From IMG/VR virus record IMGVR_UViG_3300042542_002980, positions 1-21,062 of that record: a stretch of DNA of 21,062 nt, one strand, 5' to 3'. The notes under the pieces are model-generated. The model saw only the letters and a list, made by a program, of their open reading frames with translations. It was not told the origin of the DNA and ran no database searches. Source of the DNA: a virus. Positions 2,729 to 20,306 of the stretch are shown here, piece after piece. How positions within the stretch are numbered: the stretch's first letter is position 1; every line of letters begins with the position of its first letter. The position numbers and the translations under genes were made by a program.

Positions 2729-3052
2729 ATGAGCACCTACGAACAACTGCCCGGCCAGCTTGGTCTCTCGCTGCGGCGTGGCGACGAGCTTGGCACGACC
2801 ATCGACTTCTCGCCTACGACGATGACTGGCTACACGGTGTCGGCCGTCATCACGTCTCTCGTTACCGGCAGCACGGTGGCGGCGTTCCAGACCACGCTGA
2901 CCAACGCAGCGGCCGGCATCGTCAATATCGCACTCACGGAGCAGCAGACGGCCGCCCTGCCGGTCGGCACGTACGGCTGGCGTCTTGAATGGGATGCACC
3001 CGGCAGCGTGCGGCGTACGGCACTGCAGGGCCTTGTGGAGGTAGTCGGGTGA
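2729..3052 (+). CDS. Ig-like adaptor protein (BppU N-domain-like), copy 1
   Basis: A 107-aa all-beta protein. It reads like the N-terminal Ig-like domain of phage baseplate upper proteins (BppU_N type): a charged opening ([16 protein letters not shown]), [15 protein letters not shown], then a 'fully fixed' core ([20 protein letters not shown]) and [15 protein letters not shown]. The copy at 12022-12387 shares the same order of motifs, including a common (T/V)NAAAG followed by a strand and L-T-E-x-Q-T. The ATG at 2729 is 6 bases after the connector stop; the longer frame upstream overlaps the connector gene and is not needed. Its stop overlaps the next start (GTGA), so it is coupled to the collagen-like gene. 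Likely role: attaches a fibre to the virion. That role is inferred from family and neighbours. Confidence 0.65.
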
Positions 3053-3849
3053 CGACCACCGCAACCGTCAACAGCAGCCCGATCACAGCCACCGTATCCG
3101 GTGCGTCTGTGTCGGCAACCGTCACGAGCTCGAGCACGTCGGCGAGTGCGTCCGGCGGATTCGGGCCTGCCGGAGCAGCAGGCGCGGCGGGCGCGGCCGG
3201 AGCCACTGGTCCGCAGGGTTCGCAGGGTCCGCAGGGCGAGACGGGTCCGCAAGGGCCACAAGGTGCGACGGGAGCTATCGGCCCGCAGGGCGTGGTTGGT
3301 GCCACAGGACCGCAAGGCGACACCGGCCCGCAAGGTGCCACAGGTCCAGCTGGTGCGGTTGGAGCCACGGGAGCCACGGGAGCGAAAGGCGACAAGGGCG
3401 ATCGAGGCGACACGGGCTCCCAGGGGCCAGCAGGCGAGACAGGCCCACAGGGGCCGCAAGGCGTGACGGGCGCCACGGGACCGCAGGGAGAGACAGGACC
3501 GCAAGGGCCGACCGGCCCGCAGGGCGCGACAGGTGCTCAGGGTCCGCAGGGTGCAACCGGCGCGCAGGGGCCGGCAGGCCCAACCGGTCCGCAAGGGCCA
3601 ACTGGCGACACGGGGGCCACAGGTCCGCAGGGTGCAACCGGGCCAGCTGGAACGACCTCGTGGAATGGAATCACAGACAGGCCGACCACGTTCACTCCCG
3701 CCAGCCACGCCAGCAGTCACGCCGCAGCAGGCAGCGATCCGCTGACGATTACGGCGGCGCAGGTGAGCGACTTTTCTTCGGCGGTCGCGGCGGCTTCGTC
3801 TGCGGCTTCGCCTGACTCCATACACCCGTTTCTTCTGATGGGAGGCTGA
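3049..3849 (+). CDS. Collagen-like fibre protein
   Basis: A 266-aa protein. Residues 1-38 are a Ser/Thr-rich beta head ([17 protein letters not shown]) that resembles the start of the fibre at 12384. Residues 39-203 are 55 uninterrupted Gly-x-y triplets, rich in GPQ and GAT, with one charged stretch ([13 protein letters not shown]). Residues 204-266 are a C-terminal head with the fibre-type phrase [21 protein letters not shown] and a Ser/Ala tail. Gly-x-y runs in phage proteins form collagen triple helices, so a trimeric rod is expected, about 47 nm if fully helical at 0.286 nm per residue (inference). GTG start at 3049 with GGAGG at 3037-3041, 7 bases before it, and a GTGA overlap with the adaptor. 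The gene lies between connector genes, so it could be a head or neck fibre rather than a tail fibre. Confidence 0.85.
3163..3657 (+). repeat. 55 tandem Gly-x-y (9-bp) coding repeats
   Basis: The DNA is an imperfect 9-base repeat (units such as GGTCCGCAG, GGTGCGACG) encoding the collagen triplets. The units differ at third codon positions and in amino acids, so this is an old, diverged repeat rather than a recent expansion. Such tracts are prone to unit gain and loss, which would change fibre length. This repeat also produces a long mirror frame on the minus strand. Confidence 0.9.
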
Positions 3850-3850
3850 C

Positions 3851-4180
3851 ATGCCACAGACGCACAAAGTTCTTGGGCAAACCAGCCCAGCGGCTACCAC
3901 GCTCGCCTCGCTCTACACTGTGCCGTCTGCCACCCAGGCGATTGTCTCGACGGTCACGGTGTGCAACATAGCAGCGACGGCGACCACCTATCGGATCGCA
4001 GTGCGACCCGCTGGTGCTTCCATCGCAACCTCGCAGTATCTGGTTTACGACGCTGCACTGCCTGCGAATGACACGGTGACGCTCACGCTCGGCGTGACGC
4101 TGGCGGCGACTGACGTTGTGAGTGTCTTTGCCGGTTCTGCCGACGTGGCGTTTCACGCCTACGGCGTGGAGATCACATGA
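3851..4180 (+). CDS. Small beta-sheet virion protein, unknown role
   Basis: A 109-aa protein of alternating Thr/Val/Ala strands with almost no charge (SLYTVPSATQAIVSTVTVCN, TYRIAVRPAG, SVFAGSADVAFHAYGVEI). The pattern, with a polar-aromatic N-terminus and repeated strands, matches small phage structural proteins that often sit next to fibre genes. ATG at 3851 with GGAGG at 3841-3845, one base after the collagen gene's stop. Its stop overlaps the next start (ATGA). It may be a capping or decoration protein, or a fibre subunit. No enzyme motif is visible. Confidence 0.7.
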   Translation: MPQTHKVLGQTSPAATTLASLYTVPSATQAIVSTVTVCNIAATATTYRIAVRPAGASIATSQYLVYDAALPANDTVTLTLGVTLAATDVVSVFAGSADVAFHAYGVEIT

Positions 4181-5028
4181 CGATCCGCAACGCATCGCAG
4201 TCGCTGGCAAGTGCCTCTCGGCTACGGGCGGCGATCAGCCGCACTATACGGGTACTGGTCGTCGGCGGCGGTGGAGGTGGCTCTAGCGCGTCAGCCTCGA
4301 ACCGTGTTGGTGGTGGCGGTGGTGGAGGCGGCGTCGTGGATTCCAGTACGGAGATCATCTTGGGCGTGCTGTACACGGTGCGAATTGGTGGCGGCGGTGC
4401 GGCTGGCGCGATTGGAAACTGGTCACGTTTTCACGACTTCACTGCCACCGGCGGCGGCGGCTCTGCGGGCACGACTTATTTTCAAATGGGGACGGGGCCG
4501 GGAGTGATTGGTTCATCGCCTCGCCAGGCGTCCCTGTTTCCGCACCAAGGGTTTAGCGGAGGTCTGGGAGCAACAACAAACACGAATTTCCTGCACGGCG
4601 GCGGCGGTGGAGGTGCTGCCGCGCAGGGTGGTGATGCGACGACTTCGGCAGGCGGCAATGGCGGTGCTGGCAGGCAAAGCACAACTCCTGTGAGTAGCAC
4701 TAACTTTGGCGGCGGTGGTGGTGCTGGTCAGAACAACAACGCGAACAACGTCACGACAGCAGGGAGTGGCGGCACGGGCGGCGGCGGCAGCGGAGGAACT
4801 ACCGGGGCCGGTTCGGCAGGCTCAGCAAACACTGGCGGCGGTGGCGGCGGCGGAGCATCGCCCGCAAACGCAGCCGGGGCGGCTGGAGGCTCTGGCGTGG
4901 TCGTGCTTCGGTATTCGGCTGGACTGAATCTGACCGTTGGCGTTGGTCTTACAGCCACAACGACCACAAGCGGATCGGACAAGATAACCACGATCACCGC
5001 TGGCACTGGAACCGTCACGTTTAGGTGA
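4177..5028 (+). CDS. Glycine-rich fibre/adhesin-like protein
   Basis: A 283-aa protein in which glycine runs of up to eight recur through most of the length (for example VLVVGGGGGGSS, RVGGGGGGGGVV, FLHGGGGGGAAA, NTGGGGGGGAS). It starts with an ordinary polar segment (about residues 1-25) and a short strand IRVLVVGGG, and closes with GGSGVVVLRYSAGLNLTVGV and a Thr/Ser-rich tail. This order (leading VxVVGGGG, poly-Gly middle, closing GGSGVVVLRY) is the pattern of the phage/bacterial 'glycine-rich domain'. The closest known analogues are poly-Gly regions of phage fibre tips that pack as type II helices and bind receptors. ATGA overlap with the upstream gene. The function as a receptor-binding or fibre component is inferred; it could also be a virion decoration protein. 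Confidence 0.68.
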   Translation: MTIRNASQSLASASRLRAAISRTIRVLVVGGGGGGSSASASNRVGGGGGGGGVVDSSTEIILGVLYTVRIGGGGAAGAIGNWSRFHDFTATGGGGSAGTTYFQMGTGPGVIGSSPRQASLFPHQGFSGGLGATTNTNFLHGGGGGGAAAQGGDATTSAGGNGGAGRQSTTPVSSTNFGGGGGAGQNNNANNVTTAGSGGTGGGGSGGTTGAGSAGSANTGGGGGGGASPANAAGAAGGSGVVVLRYSAGLNLTVGVGLTATTTTSGSDKITTITAGTGTVTFR

Positions 5029-6636: not shown

Positions 6637-7005
6637 ATGGGAAGCCACGCTCAGGGCACGACACTTACTTTTGCTGGCTCAAGCTACACGGTCACGAGTA
6701 TCACCTACTCGATGAACGACGTGTCGGCAGGCGACACCATCGACGTTTCGCACCTTGGGCAATCGGCGGGCAGCAACGTGCTCACCATGGATCGACCGCT
6801 CAAGGGTTCCGCCACCGACACGGGCCGCGAGGTCAGCATCGAGTACCTGGGCACCGCGCCGATCACTGACGGGGCCACCGGCACGCTGGCGATTTCCGGC
6901 GGCCTGACGCTTTCGGCGGCCGCCACTGTCAGTTCGTCGAGCGTCACGCTGACGGTCAACGACGCCACGCGTGGCCAGGCAACGTTCCGGGTCGCGCGAG
7001 TCTAG
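6637..7005 (+). CDS. Tail-tube-like protein 1
   Basis: A 122-aa all-beta protein: QGTTLTFAGSSYTVTSITYS, TIDVSHLGQSAGSN, REVSIEYLGTAPI, GATGTLAISGGL and a C-terminal strand NDATRGQATFRVARV. The layout resembles small major tail tube proteins of siphoviruses (tube subunits are two beta-sheets plus a loop). It sits exactly where the tube gene should, after the terminator-type protein and before the chaperone pair. ATG at 6637 has GGAG at 6624-6627, 9 bases upstream. It has weak but visible similarity to the next protein (F-A-G-x-S/F-x, T-S-I/V). Which of the two is the main tube protein cannot be told from sequence. Confidence 0.72.
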   Translation: MGSHAQGTTLTFAGSSYTVTSITYSMNDVSAGDTIDVSHLGQSAGSNVLTMDRPLKGSATDTGREVSIEYLGTAPITDGATGTLAISGGLTLSAAATVSSSSVTLTVNDATRGQATFRVARV

Positions 7006-7019
7006 TCACGGAGGTTTCC

Positions 7020-7328
7020 GTGGCGACGTACTCGCAGGGCTGTGTGGTTTCGTTTGCCGGGTTTTCGATCACGGAGCTGACCAGCGTGCAGCTGGAGCTG
7101 GGCGGCGGCATGCCCGTCAGTCGCAGCGGCGGCTATGCACCCAGCGGCGGCAGCGTCAGCGTCGAGGGACTCGCTCCAGCGAATTTCAACTGGGGCCAGT
7201 ACGGCAATCTCAGCATCAGCGGCGGCGGCGTGAGCTTGACATACAACGCAGTATGCACAGGCAAGGGAGCCACTGCGGCTGCCAACGATGTGACGCGTTA
7301 CACGTTCACGTTCGACCTGATTGGATGA
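7020..7328 (+). CDS. Tail-tube-like protein 2
   Basis: A 102-aa beta-rich protein (YSQGCVVSFAGFSITELTSVQLELGG, RSGGYAPSGGSVSVEGLAP, and a closing strand TRYTFTFDLIG). The opening matches the previous protein in order of motifs (QG-x-x-x-x-FAG-x-x-x-x-x-TS). GTG start at 7020 with GGAGG at 7010-7014, 5 bases before it. It overlaps the chaperone start by 4 bases (ATGA, 7325-7328). Two tube-like genes in a row suggest a second tube protein, a tail-tip ring protein or a decoration domain; the sequence does not decide. Confidence 0.65.
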   Translation: MATYSQGCVVSFAGFSITELTSVQLELGGGMPVSRSGGYAPSGGSVSVEGLAPANFNWGQYGNLSISGGGVSLTYNAVCTGKGATAAANDVTRYTFTFDLIG

Positions 7329-7678
7329 CAACCGTGGCACTGACAAAAGAACAGATTCTCGCAGCAGACGATCTCGGCCTCCTCGAGGTCAAGGTAAAGG
7401 AGTGGGGCGGCAGCGTCTTTATTCGCGTGATGACATGCGGCGAGCGTGACTCGTACGAGAACGACTGGGTGGCGAACAAGGGCAAGGGCGTCGAAAATTT
7501 CAGGACCAAGTTTTTGGCGCGTTGCCTGTGCGACGAGAAAGGCGCGCGGCTGTTCACCGACGCGGAGGTGGAGCAGCTGGCGAAGAAGTCGGCCAAGGTC
7601 ATGAGCCGAGTGTGGGCCAAGGCCATGGAGCACAACGCACTCACCGACAAGGACGTGGAGGAACTCGCAAAAAACTAG
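7325..7678 (+). CDS. Tail assembly chaperone (lambda gpG-like), zero-frame product
   Basis: A 117-aa protein with a helical, charged make-up (LTKEQILAADDLGLLEVKV, VMTCGERDSYENDWV, FTDAEVEQLAKKSAKVMSRVW). This is the layout of tail assembly chaperones that coat the tape measure before tube assembly. It ends in ELAKN, encoded by CTC GCA AAA AAC TAG, so a slippery heptamer A AAA AAC is the last sense sequence. The ATG at 7325 overlaps the previous stop and fits the four-base pattern used throughout this gene cluster. The next frame continues without interruption to 7986, giving a fused product by frameshift (see next entries). Confidence 0.82.
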   Translation: MTTVALTKEQILAADDLGLLEVKVKEWGGSVFIRVMTCGERDSYENDWVANKGKGVENFRTKFLARCLCDEKGARLFTDAEVEQLAKKSAKVMSRVWAKAMEHNALTDKDVEELAKN

Positions 7679-7717
7679 CAGTCCGCCCGACGCGTGTTTT
7701 TCTGTTTCGTCTGGCGG
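7669..7717 (+). promoter_or_regulatory. Probable -1 programmed frameshift signal
   Basis: A AAA AAC at 7669-7675 is in the zero-frame phasing of the chaperone gene and is directly followed by its TAG. After a 7-base spacer (7676-7682) comes an imperfect 10-bp stem: 7683-7692 pairs with 7708-7717, with one C/T mismatch (7688/7712) and a 15-base U-rich loop. The order slippery heptamer, 5-9 base spacer, hairpin is the standard bacterial -1 frameshift architecture. A slip puts ribosomes into the frame that encodes the gpT-like domain. Confidence 0.85.
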
Positions 7718-7986
7718 CACATCTCGGAATGACGGTCAAGCGGTTGTGTCAGGAAATGGACAGCCGGGAGTTTGCCGAGTGGATTGCGATCCACCGGCAC
7801 TTCCACCCACTCCCTGACACGTGGCGGCAGACGGGCTTGGTGGCCAGTGCGACGCTCGCGCCGTACTGCCCACGCGGCAGGACACCCAAGGTCGAGGACT
7901 TTGTTCCGATAGTGAAAGGCCCGCAGCACGAATTGCAGATACAGGAAGCGTTGGAACAGTTGGCGAAAGACTTGGCGGGTGAATAA
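7675..7986 (+). CDS. Frameshift extension: gpT-like C-terminal part of tail chaperone
   Basis: In the -1 frame after the slip, 103 residues follow (CTA GCA GTC...), so the fused product is about 220 aa (117 plus 103). The extension reads VFLFRLAAHLGMTVKRLCQEM, DSREFAEWIAIHRHFHPLPDTW and ends in LEQLAKDLAGE. The 'L-G-M-T-V-x-x-L' helix followed by 'S-R-E-x-A-E-W' is the mark of minor tail protein T / DUF4035. In lambda and many other phages this G-GT fusion is made in minor amounts by -1 frameshift and links chaperone to tape measure. No strong SD precedes an internal start (ATG at 7729), supporting frameshift rather than separate initiation. The stop TAA shares its last base with the tape measure ATG. 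Confidence 0.85.
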   Translation, partial: LAVRPTRVFLFRLAAHLGMTVKRLCQEMDSREFAEWIAIHRHFHPLPDTWRQTGLVASATLAPYCPRGRTPKVEDFVPIVKGPQHELQIQEALEQLAKDLAGE

Positions 7987-10900
7987 TGTCAAACACGGCA
8001 ATCGGCCTTGGAATTCAGTTCACTGCCAATGCCAACGGCATGACCAAGGGCCTGTCGCAGGTTGATCGCCAGCTGCAGAACCTCGGCAAGCAAGCGGCGG
8101 CGGCGGCGAGTTTGTTTGACGGCTTCGCTTCTTCAAGCGGTGCGGCTGGTGCGGCCCAGCAGCAATTTGCCACGGATATTAGCTCCCTGACGAGTGCGTA
8201 CCAGGCCAGCCAGATATCGGCCCAAGAGTACGCGTCGCAATTGCAGGCAATTACCGCCGAGGCCCGCACGGCGGCCGCTGCGTTTGCGGAAGGTGCGAGG
8301 ATCACGGACCAGGTTGCCACGGCCGAGGAGCGGCGGACCGCCGAGCTCGAGCGGCTCGGGCAGCTGCTCGCGCAAGGAGCGATCAGCGAGGAGACCTACT
8401 CGCGTGCCGCGGCAGAGGCCAGCGGTGCCAACGAAGAGGCTGCGGCAGCCGAGACCGAGCGAGCCAAGGCGTTGTCGAGGGCGGCTCAGATTACGCAGGC
8501 CAACCTGTCACCTCAGCAGAAGTACGACGCGGCGGTCCAGGAGTTGAGCGACCACCTGGCCGCTGGCCGCATCTCGCAGGAGACGTACAACTCGGCAATC
8601 GCCAAAGCTACGACAGACTACGACAAAGCCGCTAGGGCCGCCAACAAATTCGACGACGCAACCGCCGCCGGTAGTGGTCGCGGCACGATGCAGTTCAACG
8701 AGCTTTCAGGCGTGCTGTCGGCGCTGCCCGGCCCGATTGGAAACGTGGCCGGTCGGCTGTCCGGTCTATCCTCAGCTGGCCAAGGTCTGGGCAAAGTTTT
8801 TAGCGGCGGTGCTGGGCTGTCGGGCGGTCTCGCCAATATTGGTGCCTCAGTGGCCGGGCTGGTGAACCCGTTCACCGTCGGCCTCGCTGCGGTTGCTGCG
8901 TTTGGTGCCGGTGCCAATGCAGTGGCCAGCGGACTGCTCGATCTGGAAGACCGCGTCGAGAAGCTCGGCAACACGGCGGACAAGCTGGGCGTCTCGTTTG
9001 AGTTCATCCAGACGCTTGAAGAGGCGGGCAACCGCTCGGGCGTTTCCATCGAATCGGTCAGCAGTGCTTTCGGCAAGCTGCAAAAGACGCTCGCCGGTGC
9101 AGACGAGGAAAGCAAGGCCGCGACGGCGGCTCTTGCCAAGCTGGGCATTGCGTTCACAGACCTGGAGAACCTCAGCCCAGAGGAGCAGATCCGGCTGATT
9201 GGCGAGCAACTGCAGGGCATCGAAGATCCGGCGAAACGCACTGCCGCTGCCATGCAGATCTTTGGCAAGAGCGGCGCGGATTTGCTGCCGTTCTTCGCCA
9301 ACCTCGGCCCGGCGGCGGATGACATTGAACGGCTCGGCGGCGCTATGTCTGAGATCGACCGAGGCCGCATCGACGATTTCGGTGCAGGCGTCGACGCGCT
9401 GGGCGTTGCCAGTTCCAGGCTCAGTGAACTGCTACTGCTGCCGTTCGCTGGCCTGGGCGAAGGCATCTCACAAGGCTCGGCCGAGTTCCTGGGCGGCATC
9501 AACGCCATCATCGGCCCGATTGGCGACGTGCTGGAACCCATGCTATCTCGGCTGGGCACGACGTTTGAGATTGTTGGCGTGATTCTCGGCGGCATCGGCC
9601 GTTCTATTGGCGCGCTGTTGGCTCCGGTGGGCGATCTGGCTCAGGCGTGGGGCGGCTTGACGGGCGGTTTCGATGACGGGCTGGTGGACGTTGTCCGGTA
9701 TTTCGTCGACGCGGAGGTGGCAGCGCGAGAGTGGCTGGCCTCATTCAGCCCGCTCAATGCAATCACGGACGGCATCGGTGGCCTCGGCGAAACCATTTCG
9801 CGTATCTCCAACATCATCGGCACCGCGCTCTCTCAGGTCGGCGGGTATATCGGAGAGACACTGGAATCGTGGGCCGAGTTCTTCGACTTGCAGTCGGCCA
9901 TCGAACAGATCGGCGGCGTAATCTCGTCCGTGTTCGGCAGCGTCTCGTCGACATTCCAAAAGATCGCCACAGCCATCGGCGGCACGGTCGACCGTTTGCT
10001 CACGATTGCCGAAAACTTTCTTGGCATCACGGCCGAGGTTGACACGACCATCACGCCCGAACTCGACCTTACGCAGCCCAGCCTTGCCGCCGCACAGTTC
10101 GCCAAGGATATCGGCACGGCAGCGACGGCCGCCGCAGAGTTTGGAGAGGCCGGGTTTCAGGCGGCCCTTGCCTATCAAGAGTCTCTGGAGCAGATCGCCC
10201 AACTACAGGCCGACAACACGCTGACGGCCGAAGAAGCCAAGAAAATGGCAGAGCAGGAGAAGGCTGCGTTTGAGGCCAAGATTGCAACGCTGGACCAAGA
10301 GGCCCAAGCGCAGGCAAAGGCCGCCGAGGCCGCGCAGAAGGCGGCCGACGAAAAGATCGCAGCGGCAGAGCGTGCCGCAGCTGCTGCCGTCGAGGCCGAC
10401 CGCAAGCTGGCCGATGCGTTCATCTCAGCCCAAGGTCTTGGCGGCGATGGTGCGACGGCGGCAGACACGCTGCTGGCTATCACTCGGCAGATCGAGGAGA
10501 CCGAGGCGGCAATCGTCGAGGCCCGTGCCAGCGGCGACAAGGCGGCCGAAGATGCTGCCATCCGACGGCTGCAAGTTCTCGACCAGGCCCAGGCGGCGGC
10601 CGAAGAGACGGCACAGTTTGGGTTCTCAACACAGGACGCAGAGCGTGCGATAGCGTCGGTGCGAGAGTCCCTCGACGAGACGTTCTCGTTTGAAAACTTT
10701 GAGATTGCGCCGGAGGCGTTCGCAGCTGCACAGGAGCAGCTGTCGCAGCTGGAGGCGGACCTCGACGCCAAGGTCATCGACCCGGAGACGTTTGAGCAAG
10801 CGGCCGACGCAATCCGCAAAGGCTTTGAAGACGCTTTGGCGACGGCCCAGAAGATTGCCGACCTGAACGAGCAGTACGCCAACCGTGCTGCTGAGATCGA

Positions 10901-11117
10901 GGCCGACCGGCTGGACGCTCTATCGCAGGTCTCGCAGCAGCCCGTGCAGGCGACCGACGTACGCACGAGCGAGGGCGTGAGCGAGTTCCTGCGGCTGGCG
11001 ACCGGCCGCGAAGATCCGGCGATTGCCGAGTATCGGAAACAGCTGTCGGAACTGCAGAAGATCAAGGCCGAGATCAACAAGCTCGGCGGCGTGGTCGACA
11101 TCGTGGGAGCAGCGTAA
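7986..11117 (+). CDS. Tail tape measure protein
   Basis: The largest gene, 1043 aa, one base overlapping the chaperone stop. Residues 1-220 are Ala-rich coiled helices containing three imperfect copies of a motif of the form L-x-x-G-x-I-S-x-E-x-Y (about residues 77-87, 127-139 and 190-201). Residues 250-318 are hydrophobic and glycine-rich, suited to inner-membrane insertion. Residues 320-470 hold the usual tape-measure motifs (KLGNTADKLGVS, AMQIFGKSGADLLP). Residues 500-640 are hydrophobic/amphipathic, and 735-840 are a long Ala/Glu coiled coil. Tape measures set tail length at roughly 0.15 nm per residue, so the tail should be about 155 nm (inference). No peptidase or muralytic motif was seen. 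Confidence 0.93.
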   Translation: MSNTAIGLGIQFTANANGMTKGLSQVDRQLQNLGKQAAAAASLFDGFASSSGAAGAAQQQFATDISSLTSAYQASQISAQEYASQLQAITAEARTAAAAFAEGARITDQVATAEERRTAELERLGQLLAQGAISEETYSRAAAEASGANEEAAAAETERAKALSRAAQITQANLSPQQKYDAAVQELSDHLAAGRISQETYNSAIAKATTDYDKAARAANKFDDATAAGSGRGTMQFNELSGVLSALPGPIGNVAGRLSGLSSAGQGLGKVFSGGAGLSGGLANIGASVAGLVNPFTVGLAAVAAFGAGANAVASGLLDLEDRVEKLGNTADKLGVSFEFIQTLEEAGNRSGVSIESVSSAFGKLQKTLAGADEESKAATAALAKLGIAFTDLENLSPEEQIRLIGEQLQGIEDPAKRTAAAMQIFGKSGADLLPFFANLGPAADDIERLGGAMSEIDRGRIDDFGAGVDALGVASSRLSELLLLPFAGLGEGISQGSAEFLGGINAIIGPIGDVLEPMLSRLGTTFEIVGVILGGIGRSIGALLAPVGDLAQAWGGLTGGFDDGLVDVVRYFVDAEVAAREWLASFSPLNAITDGIGGLGETISRISNIIGTALSQVGGYIGETLESWAEFFDLQSAIEQIGGVISSVFGSVSSTFQKIATAIGGTVDRLLTIAENFLGITAEVDTTITPELDLTQPSLAAAQFAKDIGTAATAAAEFGEAGFQAALAYQESLEQIAQLQADNTLTAEEAKKMAEQEKAAFEAKIATLDQEAQAQAKAAEAAQKAADEKIAAAERAAAAAVEADRKLADAFISAQGLGGDGATAADTLLAITRQIEETEAAIVEARASGDKAAEDAAIRRLQVLDQAQAAAEETAQFGFSTQDAERAIASVRESLDETFSFENFEIAPEAFAAAQEQLSQLEADLDAKVIDPETFEQAADAIRKGFEDALATAQKIADLNEQYANRAAEIEADRLDALSQVSQQPVQATDVRTSEGVSEFLRLATGREDPAIAEYRKQLSELQKIKAEINKLGGVVDIVGAA

Positions 11118-12021: not shown

Positions 12022-12387
12022 ATGGCAGATTTTCTTGCACTTCCGGGCACGCTCAATATCTCCCTCACGGTGGGCGATGAGTTCGGCATGCTGGCCGACC
12101 TGAGCATCGACACCACCGGGTTCACTTGGACGGCCATCGTCTACCAGGTTTCGACGAGCGTGTCGTTCGTCAACCCGTCCGGCGTCGCAACGCAGGGCGC
12201 CACCGCGGCCACGTTCGCCGTCACGACGGTCAACGCTGCGGCCGGGCAGCTAAACCTTTCGCTGACTGAGTTGCAGACCTCGACGCTTGTGTCGGCACAG
12301 ACCTACCGCTGGTATCTGCGTGGCGTCTCGCCGGGCCTCGTCACCAGGACCTACCTCTCTGGCACACTGCGAGCCTTCGCACCATGA
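12022..12387 (+). CDS. Ig-like adaptor protein (BppU N-domain-like), copy 2
   Basis: A 121-aa beta-rich protein, clearly a paralogue of the 2729-3052 product: ISLTVGDEFGMLADLSID against [16 protein letters not shown], then TTVNAAAGQLNLSLTELQTS against [18 protein letters not shown], and TYRWYLRGVSPGLVTRTYLSG against [19 protein letters not shown]. Ig-like BppU-type adaptors join a fibre to the tail tip. The start has AAGGTGA at 12010-12016, about 5 bases before the ATG. The stop overlaps the next ATG (ATGA, 12384-12387), so adaptor and fibre are coupled, as for copy 1. This copy sits after the tail-tip candidate, the expected place for a receptor-binding apparatus. Confidence 0.72.
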   Translation: MADFLALPGTLNISLTVGDEFGMLADLSIDTTGFTWTAIVYQVSTSVSFVNPSGVATQGATAATFAVTTVNAAAGQLNLSLTELQTSTLVSAQTYRWYLRGVSPGLVTRTYLSGTLRAFAP

Positions 12388-14468
12388 GCATCTCCGTCGT
12401 TGTCTCTAGCACCGCTGCGGGTGTGAGCGTGTCGGGCGGCACAGCCGTGTCGATCGAGGTCGGCGGCGGCATCGGCCCGGCTGGCTTTGTTGTCGCTCCT
12501 GGCACGGCAACCAACGCCTTCGGGACGTTTCAGCTGGCGGCGGGCGACGGTATCACGATTTCCACCAGTGCCTCGCAGTTCACGATTTCAAGCTACGGCA
12601 CGGCGGCTGTCTCCAGCCTCGCTCCTGTGCAGTCGGTGGCCGGGCGTGTGGGTGCGGTGCAGCTGCAGGCCGCAGACGTGACGGCTGGTACGTTCGACAT
12701 CGCACGTATTCCGACGATCTCGTACACCGCCTTGGCCAACGTACCGGCCACGTTCGGACCCTCGGCCCACACGCACTCGACCAGCGACGTGGTGTCGTTC
12801 ACGGCTGCGGCGGCGGCCGCTGCTCCGGTGCAGAGCGTGGCGGGCCGCCAGGGTGCGATCTCGCTGGCAGCGGCTGACGTAAGCGGCCTGGCGTCCGTGG
12901 CCACCAGCGGCTCGTATACGAGCCTGCAGAATGTCCCGGCGACCTTTGCACCTGCGGCCCATACGCACGGCACGGCAGACATCACCGGTATCTCGAGCTC
13001 GTTCGCGGCAGCCAGCCACACGCACGACGCCGCGGCGATTTCCAGCGGCGTGCTCGCGCTCGCTCGCATCCCAACCATTGGCTACACGGCGCTCAGCGGC
13101 GTGCCGTCGACGTTCGCACCGCAGGCCCATACGCACAGCACGGCCGACGTTGTGGGCCTCACGGCATCGTTCTCACAGGTCGGGCACACGCACGACTACG
13201 CGGCGTCGATCCACACGCACTCCACGGCCGACATCGCTGGATACACCAGCTTGCCCGCACAGGGCGGCAAGGCGGGGCCGCTGGTCACTGACGGCACGGC
13301 GGCCAGCTGGGCGAGCCGCTTCAGCATCGTCGACCCGGTGCTGGTCCAGGGTGCTGGCATGACGCTCAGCCGCGACACGGCGGCCGGGTCGATCACGGTG
13401 GCGTTTGCGGGCGGCACGTCCGGGATTGTCGTGAGCAGTGCCACGCCGCAGCCGCTGGGCACAGCCTCGGCGGGTACGAGCGGAGACGCGTCGCGGGCCG
13501 ACCACGTGCACTTGATGCCCTCCGCGGCAGACGTTGGAGCCGCTCCCGCCAGCCACTCGCACGATTACGTGCAGGTGCTGAACGGGCTGACGGGCACTGT
13601 GTCGATTACCGGCGGTGCTGGTGTGACGGTCAGCACGGCCAGCAGCTCGATCACGATCGCGGCGGCTGGCGGTGGTGGCGGTATTTCGTGGCTGTCGGCG
13701 CCTGCGTCGCCGACGGCTACAGGGACGGCTGGGCAGATCGCGTATGATTCCGACTACCTTTACGTCGCCACAGCCGCGAACACTTGGAGGCGGACGGCGT
13801 TGGCATCGTGGGCACAAGATCCGTTTTTTAGCAACGTGGCGATTCTGCTCAGGATGGACGGCAGCGGCGCGACGTTTGTTGATTCGTCACCGTCTCCTAA
13901 GACGATCACTGCGGTCGGCAGCGTCACGCAATCAACGACCCAGAGCAAGTGGGGCGGAAAGTCTGCGTATTTCGACGGCAGCGGCGATGCTCTAACTGTT
14001 GCCATGCCCGCACTCGGCACCAGCGACTTTGTTATCGAAATGTGGCTGTATCTTGTTTCCAATGCAGGAGACTACGTTGGCTTGTACGACGGAAGGTCGG
14101 GAGACGTAACTGCGCACCCTGTGCTCTTTCTTGGCAGCGGCGTGCTTACCTACTACGTCGTGCAAGGCGGAAACGCTTCCGGTGCGACTCGCATTACAGG
14201 CGGGACCGTCTCGGCGGGTGCGTGGCATCACGTCGCCGTGGCTCGCTCGTCTGGCACCACGCGGATGTATTTCAACGGCACACAGGCAGGCAGCTCGTGG
14301 TCAGACTCCACGGACTATCCTTCGTCAACTGCGGCTTACATCGGCTCGCTTTACAACGTGAACATCCTAAATGGCTACATCGACGACGTGCGAGTGACGA
14401 TCGGAGCCGATCGTGGATACACCGGCTCTACCATCACCGTGCCGACAGCGGCGTTTCCTAGTGGGTGA
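12384..14468 (+). CDS. Receptor-binding tail fibre with His-x-His repeats and LamG-like C-terminus
   Basis: A 694-aa protein. Residues 1-35 (VVVSSTAAGVSVSGGTAV, then GGGIGPAG) resemble the head of the collagen-like protein. Residues 80-285 hold a VQSVAGR-x-GA-x-x-L motif repeated and phrases of the form VPATF-x-P-x-AHTH-x-TADV. There are eight His-x-His motifs (H129/131, 193/195, 212/214, 249/251, 268/270, 277/279, 374/376, 391/393); in T4 gp37 such motifs bind iron along the trimer axis. Residues 440-480 carry a linker (GTAGQIAYDSDYLYVATAANTWRR in essence). Residues 484-694 look like a LamG/concanavalin-type sugar-binding domain (FVDSSPSPKTIT, FDGSGDALTV, GAWHHVAVARSSG, GYIDDVRVT). Likely the main receptor-binding fibre; carbohydrate receptor is inferred. 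No intramolecular chaperone was recognised at the C-terminus. Confidence 0.87.
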   Translation: MSISVVVSSTAAGVSVSGGTAVSIEVGGGIGPAGFVVAPGTATNAFGTFQLAAGDGITISTSASQFTISSYGTAAVSSLAPVQSVAGRVGAVQLQAADVTAGTFDIARIPTISYTALANVPATFGPSAHTHSTSDVVSFTAAAAAAAPVQSVAGRQGAISLAAADVSGLASVATSGSYTSLQNVPATFAPAAHTHGTADITGISSSFAAASHTHDAAAISSGVLALARIPTIGYTALSGVPSTFAPQAHTHSTADVVGLTASFSQVGHTHDYAASIHTHSTADIAGYTSLPAQGGKAGPLVTDGTAASWASRFSIVDPVLVQGAGMTLSRDTAAGSITVAFAGGTSGIVVSSATPQPLGTASAGTSGDASRADHVHLMPSAADVGAAPASHSHDYVQVLNGLTGTVSITGGAGVTVSTASSSITIAAAGGGGGISWLSAPASPTATGTAGQIAYDSDYLYVATAANTWRRTALASWAQDPFFSNVAILLRMDGSGATFVDSSPSPKTITAVGSVTQSTTQSKWGGKSAYFDGSGDALTVAMPALGTSDFVIEMWLYLVSNAGDYVGLYDGRSGDVTAHPVLFLGSGVLTYYVVQGGNASGATRITGGTVSAGAWHHVAVARSSGTTRMYFNGTQAGSSWSDSTDYPSSTAAYIGSLYNVNILNGYIDDVRVTIGADRGYTGSTITVPTAAFPSG
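12738..13238 (+). repeat. Internal fibre repeats (SYTALxxVPATF-x-P-x-AHTH units)
   Basis: Within the fibre gene this stretch encodes three full units of roughly the same order: strand with Y-T-(A/S)-L, VP(A/S)TF, three residues, (A)HTH, then STADV/GTADI and a variable spacer of about 18-35 residues; additional HTH motifs lie between them. At DNA level units share only short tracts (for example CCCATACGCAC or CCCACACGCAC), so they have diverged and are under protein-level constraint. The repeat likely sets shaft length. Confidence 0.7.
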
Positions 14469-18753: not shown

Positions 18754-19728
18754 TTAGGTTGCTGGCTTGTCGCCCGTAGATTCCTCTCCGCCAGGTGGAA
18801 GCTTCTTCTGCTTGGCACCTGGATCATGGGGCCTGTCGATGTCGGGCAGGTAGCCGAGGTTGGATTCCCGGCCCGTGATTTCCTCGTCGTAGTAGTGGTT
18901 CTCGGCCATTTCCTCCGAGGAGTGGCCTAGTTGCCGCTTCGCTGAGATCCCGGCCCGCTTGAGGTAGCTGGCCGTCGATTTGCGGATGGCATGGAACGGC
19001 TTGTATGGCACGCCAGCCACCCGGCAGAGCACCCGCAGGCTGTTGTAGGCAGACAGCGGCTCCCGGTCGTCCAGCCAAGGCCATACGCGAGCCTCTGGCG
19101 GGCCTTTCTGGGCAGCCAGCATCTTTGCTAGGTCTGGCGTGATCGGCCGTGTAATCGTCTCCCTGTGGCCCTTGCGGGTGGCTGCAAGGAACGTGAGAGT
19201 GTGCCGCTCGAGGTCCACCTCCGACCAGCGGATCTGCAAGATGGCACCGATCCTCTCGCCGGTCTGGAACATGGCCATGATTTTCGTCGGCCAGTACCAG
19301 GCGGCAGGCTTTCCCGACACCATTCCCTTCCTCTGCCTGCCAACCTCCACCAGCCGCACGAGCTCCTCGGCCTTGTAGGCCTTCGGTACAGGCTTCGGCA
19401 CCTTCGGCCTTGCGTAGTCTGGGAACTCGATCATCTGGCCGTCCGACCGCTTCCAACGCTTCTTGGCCAGCCAGTTCCACAGTGTGCGGATGTGGGCTGA
19501 GTCTTTCGCCAAAGACGCCGGGCTGATCAGCTTCCACCGTGAGTGCTGGGTGACACGCCGCCACCGCAGAAACTTGGCGATCGTCAGATCGTCGAGGTCG
19601 TCCACGGTCGGCTCCCGCCCCAGAAAGTCTCTTAGGCGGGCCAGCGTCGCCACGTACATCGTCACCGTCCGGTCGCACAGGTCCTTGTGTGGGGCAAATC
19701 GGTCAATCAACAGGTCTTTCAGCTGCAT
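18754..19728 (-). CDS. Tyrosine recombinase / phage integrase
   Basis: A 324-aa integrase read from ATG 19728 (minus); GAGGAG lies 7 bases before it, whereas the in-frame TTG upstream at 19788 adds 20 residues without a ribosome site. An N-terminal SAM-like DNA-binding part (residues 1-105) precedes a catalytic domain from about 115: R159 (TGERIGAI), K186 (TRKGHR), H246-x-x-R249 (FHAIRK), H269 (LGHSS) and Y279 or Y280 (ENHYYD) as nucleophile. It would integrate the phage at an attachment site not identifiable here. Its C-terminal 40 residues are a charged, probably disordered tail (GAKQKKLPPGGEESTG). It is convergent with the late operon and divergent from the excisionase-like gene, which places the switch region at its promoter. 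Confidence 0.93.
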   Translation of the reverse strand: MQLKDLLIDRFAPHKDLCDRTVTMYVATLARLRDFLGREPTVDDLDDLTIAKFLRWRRVTQHSRWKLISPASLAKDSAHIRTLWNWLAKKRWKRSDGQMIEFPDYARPKVPKPVPKAYKAEELVRLVEVGRQRKGMVSGKPAAWYWPTKIMAMFQTGERIGAILQIRWSEVDLERHTLTFLAATRKGHRETITRPITPDLAKMLAAQKGPPEARVWPWLDDREPLSAYNSLRVLCRVAGVPYKPFHAIRKSTASYLKRAGISAKRQLGHSSEEMAENHYYDEEITGRESNLGYLPDIDRPHDPGAKQKKLPPGGEESTGDKPAT

Positions 19729-19771
19729 CTTCGCTCTCCTCTTTGGTGTTTGAGGGGCGATCCTAGCGGGT

Positions 19772-19801
19772 AGTGTACAGACGTTCAAGTTTTCGGCTCA
19801 A
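19772..19801 (-). promoter_or_regulatory. Candidate integrase promoter
   Basis: On the minus strand, TTGAGC (complement of 19796-19801) and TACACT (complement of 19772-19777) are 18 bases apart, with expected transcript start near 19765 and a leader of about 37 bases to ATG 19728. The -10 lies inside direct repeat 1, so a protein bound there could switch the promoter off. The -35 is a weak match. Confidence 0.35.
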
Positions 19802-20042: not shown

Positions 20043-20306
20043 ATGATTGCCGTGGCCTCGCCAGACAAAGAATGGATCACAGTCGCCGAAGCAGTGAAGC
20101 TCTGCGGCTGCACCGAGGGCTACATCCGGCGGCTCTTGATTGCCGAGGATCCCCGGCTGACCGGCTGGAAGGCCGGACAGCGGGCCTGGCTGGTCAAGCG
20201 GGCCGACGCGGTGGCACTCAAGGCCAGCCTGTCCACCCGCTCTGTGGGCAGGCGAGCTGAGAAGCCGGCGGCACCCAAGCCCAGCCGCAAGCGGAAGCCC
20301 TCGTAA
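20043..20306 (+). CDS. Excisionase-like / winged-helix HTH DNA-binding protein
   Basis: An 87-aa protein. Residues about 11-55 show a helix-turn-helix (EWITVAEAVKLCGCTEGYIRRLL) followed by a wing-like strand (GWKAGQRAWLVKRADAVAL), the pattern of phage excisionase/MerR-type DNA-binding domains. The basic tail (KPAAPKPSRKRKPS) is probably DNA- or RNA-binding. Two starts are possible: ATG 20043, which would be leaderless given P1, and GTG 20052, 9 bases after AGGA (20039-20042). The gene is divergent from the integrase. It is likely the excisionase or a switch regulator; a repressor role is not excluded. P1's operator-like motif suggests autoregulation. Confidence 0.75.
   Translation: MIAVASPDKEWITVAEAVKLCGCTEGYIRRLLIAEDPRLTGWKAGQRAWLVKRADAVALKASLSTRSVGRRAEKPAAPKPSRKRKPS

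Follow-up and report, generated by a model that had tools for sequence, protein, structure and literature searches.

In a stretch of viral DNA of 21,062 nt (hereafter the window), the junction between two small tail genes, G and T, is almost certainly a site of programmed –1 ribosomal frameshifting of the lambda G-GT type. The production of a short and a fused chaperone by frameshifting is well known in long-tailed phages, and its assignment to these chaperone genes is supported here by the match of both halves to tail-chaperone families next to the tape measure gene, by the slippery heptamer kept among relatives and by the lack of a nearby start for T. The case rests on homology and conservation; the bare heptamer and the fold of the hairpin downstream match what is expected by chance.

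Anatomy of the G-T junction and its gene neighbourhood

Positions 7201-8460 of the window were inspected directly for the anatomy of the junction, and the main features are collected in Table 1. G begins with an ATG that overlaps, as ATGA, the stop of the ORF upstream, and it ends in GAG GAA CTC GCA AAA AAC TAG, in which A_AAA_AAC falls, inside the G/T overlap, in the X_XXY_YYZ phase of G that a –1 slip needs. The first codon read in the new frame would be CTA (7675-7677), from which the –1 frame is open up to the TAA at 7984-7986, in turn overlapping the start codon of the tape measure gene (ATG, 7986); the predicted fusion would thus count 117 + 103 = 220 aa. A spacer (7676-7682) separates the heptamer from a stem in which CCGCCCGACG (7683-7692) faces CGTCTGGCGG (7708-7717) with nine pairs and one C-U mismatch. 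An earlier note on this DNA had described the heptamer directly before TAG in the –1 phase, a 7-base spacer, a 10-bp stem with one mismatch and a –1 frame open for 103 codons with gpT-like sequence, and all of these elements were found in place. The bare heptamer is no rarer than chance, occurring twice on the two strands of the window vs 0.9 expected; it is its position, its phase and its conservation across relatives that stand above chance.

Table 1. Features of the G-T region (positions in the window).
Feature	Position	Strand	Description
Two tandem small ORFs	6637-7005, 7020-7328	+	Probable tail tube proteins, from position only
Gene G	7325-7678	+	Tail assembly chaperone, 117 aa; ATG at 7325, stop TAG at 7676-7678
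GGAGGA	7657-7662	+	Shine-Dalgarno-like, 6 nt 5' of the heptamer; possible stimulator (speculative)
Slippery heptamer A_AAA_AAC	7669-7675	+	Last two sense codons of G; phase read from the sequence
T part	7675-7986	+	–1 frame, 103 codons, gpT-like; lacks a nearby start codon of its own
Stem-loop	7683-7717	+	7 nt 3' of the heptamer, 15-nt loop (RNA fold); probable stimulator
Tape measure protein	7986-11117	+	PHROG 9483, 8462 and 58 (tail length tape measure protein), best E 3.3e-23

Residues 5-117 of G match PHROG 344 (tail assembly chaperone) with an E value of 6.7e-29, and a match of G to Pfam Phage_TAC_1 is under the curated cut-off (E 0.0031). For T there is a match to PHROG 337 (tail protein; E 3e-15) and a weak one to Pfam Phage_tail_T (E 7.5e-5; 23.5 bits, below the cut-off of 25.9). 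Both sit just 5' of the tape measure gene, whose product is the expected partner of G and GT. The two tandem ORFs upstream resemble each other (27.6% identity, E 4.7e-8), have no match among Pfam or PHROG families and are probably a duplicated tail tube protein, the expected partner of T. With genes for an HK97-type capsid, head-tail adaptor, tail completion, terminator and tape measure proteins around the junction, the neighbourhood is a normal siphovirus module. Other ORFs of the window were also noted: one between the capsid and head-tail adaptor genes (1187-1930) resembles, and only weakly, a PHROG whose function is unknown, one within the head-tail module (2989-3849) carries collagen triple-helix repeats (Pfam Collagen, E 2.9e-25) and is followed by an ORF with a glycine-rich domain (4177-5028), and a probable tail fibre with repeats at 12384-14468 ends in a C-terminal concanavalin-like lectin domain (Laminin_G_3, E 6.9e-17).

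In the proposed mechanism most ribosomes would read GCA AAA AAC TAG and release gpG (117 aa), and a minority would slip back one base on A_AAA_AAC, reading CTA GCA GTC CGC instead of the stop and synthesizing gpGT (220 aa). If lambda is taken as the model, gpG in many copies and gpGT in few would associate with the tape measure protein, and the tail tube protein would be recruited through T; slippage would be stimulated by the hairpin and perhaps also by GGAGGA. The occurrence and efficiency of slippage, the fused product and the chaperone role are inferred. According to PMC5009743, A_AAA_AAC is much less prone to shift than A_AAA_AAG in E. coli, so that the efficiency in the real host is unpredictable. 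It is conceivable, and in our view rather unlikely, that A_AAA_AAC works well by virtue of a host property, such as the asparagine tRNA or slow termination, slippage being coupled to termination; in this phage group the heptamer A_AAA_AAC almost always touches a stop codon. As for a queuosine-related host cause, both planctomycete MAGs with a relative carry tgt, and the simple absence of the enzyme is therefore unsupported there.

Conservation of the shift site and of the stem

Relatives were collected by scanning IMG/VR with G and T, which gave many loci, by tblastn among isolated phages (of Streptomyces, Rhodococcus, Thermobifida, Microcystis, Moraxella, Psychrobacter and Acinetobacter) and by a genome scan with the T alignment, which gave four loci (two planctomycete MAGs, one Chloroflexi MAG and Streptomyces solincola). 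At each junction G was followed to its stop and T was traced back to the opening of its frame. The comparison of homologous phages that the earlier note had suggested, run on distinct junctions from metagenomic viruses, isolated phages and bacterial genomes, revealed a canonical heptamer in phase in 101 out of 108 sequences, which are akin to each other and not independent trials; clustering at 95% leaves 67 of them and the same picture. The heptamer is A_AAA_AAC in 67 cases, G_GGA_AAA in 18, G_GGA_AAC in 14 and G_GGT_TTC in two, these last being assigned by the scan alone and lying 33 nt from the stop. The T frame is –1 relative to G in all of the listed junctions except one. The remaining seven junctions, in which the scan detected no canonical heptamer, are those of the Rhodococcus phages REQ1 and Shagrat, three sequences of the type of Thermobifida phage P1312, the Microcystis phage Mae-JY09 and L029, a single metagenomic contig; this is the only close relative with a broken heptamer (A_AAA_ATC, GCAAAAATCTAG, near 2837-2848), whether through an error of sequencing or because the site has truly been lost.

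Codon use at the site was compared as well. GCA AAA AAC are the last three codons of G in 40/40 non-redundant relatives with A_AAA_AAC; elsewhere in the G genes of these relatives AAA accounts for 75 of the 453 lysine codons (AAG for 83%) and GCA for 125 of the 457 alanine codons. In other relatives the homologous site holds G_GGA_AAA or G_GGA_AAC, and such exchanges of one heptamer type for another suggest that what is selected is the capacity to slip and not the amino acids encoded. A_AAA_AAC, G_GGA_AAA and G_GGA_AAC have replaced one another at a homologous shift site, which makes the junction a clean case for comparison. Upstream of the heptamer, the GAG codon of GGAGGA is conserved as GAG in all 40 relatives, vs 70% GAG for glutamates elsewhere in G, and GGAGGA is missing from the relatives with G_GGA_AAA, where GAAGA or CAAGA is found instead. 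The adjacent stop was also considered as a required element and rejected, because L154, L265, L266 and Yara keep the heptamer before sense codons; in L154 and Yara the T codon at the place of the stop overlap is leucine, though no stop overlaps it.

The stem is a probable stimulator of the frameshift, with evidence on both sides. Its nine pairs form in all of the 30 distinct relatives, seven of them never varying, and two compensatory changes were observed, in one sequence each (G-C to A-U at 7689-7711 and A-U to U-A at 7690-7710); stem registers slid along the same 30 relatives are paired in 23-65% of cells. When codons are resampled, 25 out of 27 sequences, again akin to each other, fold better than the mean and 15 reach p < 0.05. 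In the window, however, the hairpin does not stand out from dinucleotide shuffles (z +0.32) nor, with the T peptide fixed and codons resampled, from codon-preserving chance (z –0.92, p 0.17), and the G+C-rich arms are partly forced by the peptide motif of T. Furthermore, phiSASD1 and Psymv2 possess the heptamer and no strong hairpin, folding worse than the mean, and in the relatives with G_GGA_AAA the pairing of this region adopts other registers. The stem described by the earlier note is real as a conserved pairing and less certain as a stimulator than was implied, and of all the elements in the note's reading it is the weakest.

Translation of T and alternative explanations

Conservation of the peptide RPxRxFLFRLAAHL, after the junction, extends to Streptomyces and Psychrobacter phages, and from the fourth codon on the residues R4, P5, F9, F11, R12, L13 and A14 do not vary whereas the codons for them do, so that the stretch between the stop of G and the first ATG of the T frame is translated. 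This speaks against the possibility that T is a separate gene, expressed without fusion by coupled re-initiation at an internal codon. An in-frame ATG is indeed present at 7729 and a T-like gene is annotated as a separate short CDS in the records of REQ1, Psymv2, Yara and AbIPP1; however, initiation at 7729 would lose the conserved VRPTRVFLFRLAAHLG segment, and the invariant heptamer would be left unexplained. ATG, GTG and TTG, to the exclusion of CTG and rarer starts, were counted as start codons in the 101 junction rows whose heptamer stands 0 or 3 nt from the stop of G. In no row does such a codon of the T frame fall in the 60 nt preceding the conserved segment of T, and in 54 rows the whole open stretch up to that segment is free of them. 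A separate T is therefore very improbable. Relatives without the heptamer and with a separate start for T, which the earlier note had named as evidence against frameshifting, were looked for in the same material, and what emerged was the widespread heptamer reported above and no nearby start in the rows scored.

The two frames could also be joined in the mRNA, by slippage of the RNA polymerase on the run of six A and with no slippage of the ribosome, an explanation to which we give even less credit: where relatives carry G_GGA_AAA or G_GGA_AAC, no more than three or four A stand in a row at this point, and longer runs are generally needed (An with n > 7, as cited in PMC3711429). That the heptamer arose by chance next to an ordinary overlap of genes, or that one long gene was broken by a sequencing frameshift, is scarcely credible at all; the number of bare heptamers expected in the window would allow the former, but the same arrangement, with the frame offset kept, recurs in about a hundred distinct sequences. 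Stop codon readthrough was rejected, the 0 frame after TAG reaching TGA after 17 codons. Ribosomal –1 frameshifting is the reading retained below.

Known systems and the question of the host

The lambda system shares with the window the gene order, the –1 direction, a small chaperone G extended by T upstream of the tape measure gene and a heptamer near the end of G, whereas its slippery heptamer is G_GGA_AAG and that of the window is A_AAA_AAC with a stop touching it. The reference for the lambda G-GT frameshift is Xu, Hendrix and Duda (2004, cited in PMC5009743). Homologous in sequence are the Streptomyces phages Dubu and phiSASD1, with G (41-42% identity) and T (41-43%) alike and a heptamer touching the stop, whose RefSeq records carry a joined two-piece CDS with the frameshift annotated at the same place; unlike the window, they have G_GGA_AAC and phiSASD1 lacks a strong hairpin after it. 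In haloarchaeal viruses, A_AAA_AAC (HCTV-2) and G_GGA_AAC (HCTV-1) are given as g-t shift sites in PMC5009743; the HCTV-2 heptamer, as described in that paper, is that of the window, and the hosts differ in being archaeal. The Psychrobacter phage Psymv2 (L167, near 2501) and the Acinetobacter phage AbIPP1 (L360, near 1755; outside the 108 counted) have GCA AAA AAC TAA at the junction (GCAAAAAACTAA). Both differ from the window in that two unjoined CDS are annotated, that of T starting downstream of the junction, and Psymv2 also lacks a strong hairpin; the comparison suggests that these records are without the fusion and without the conserved beginning of T. The junction in the window is an ordinary case of the lambda G-GT type, A_AAA_AAC having already been reported for such genes, and it changes nothing in principle about tail assembly.

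The phage is uncultured and a planctomycete host is a guess, made because the nearest relative in a bacterial genome, its T about 51% identical, sits in a Pirellulales (planctomycete) MAG. The capsid protein of the window, searched in this MAG as a test of the host, was not found, and a literature search returned no paper on planctomycete prophages with tail frameshifts. A tyrosine integrase on the minus strand (18754-19788) and an excisionase-like ORF at 20043-20306 (PHROG 66, E 8.7e-5) suggest that the phage is temperate.
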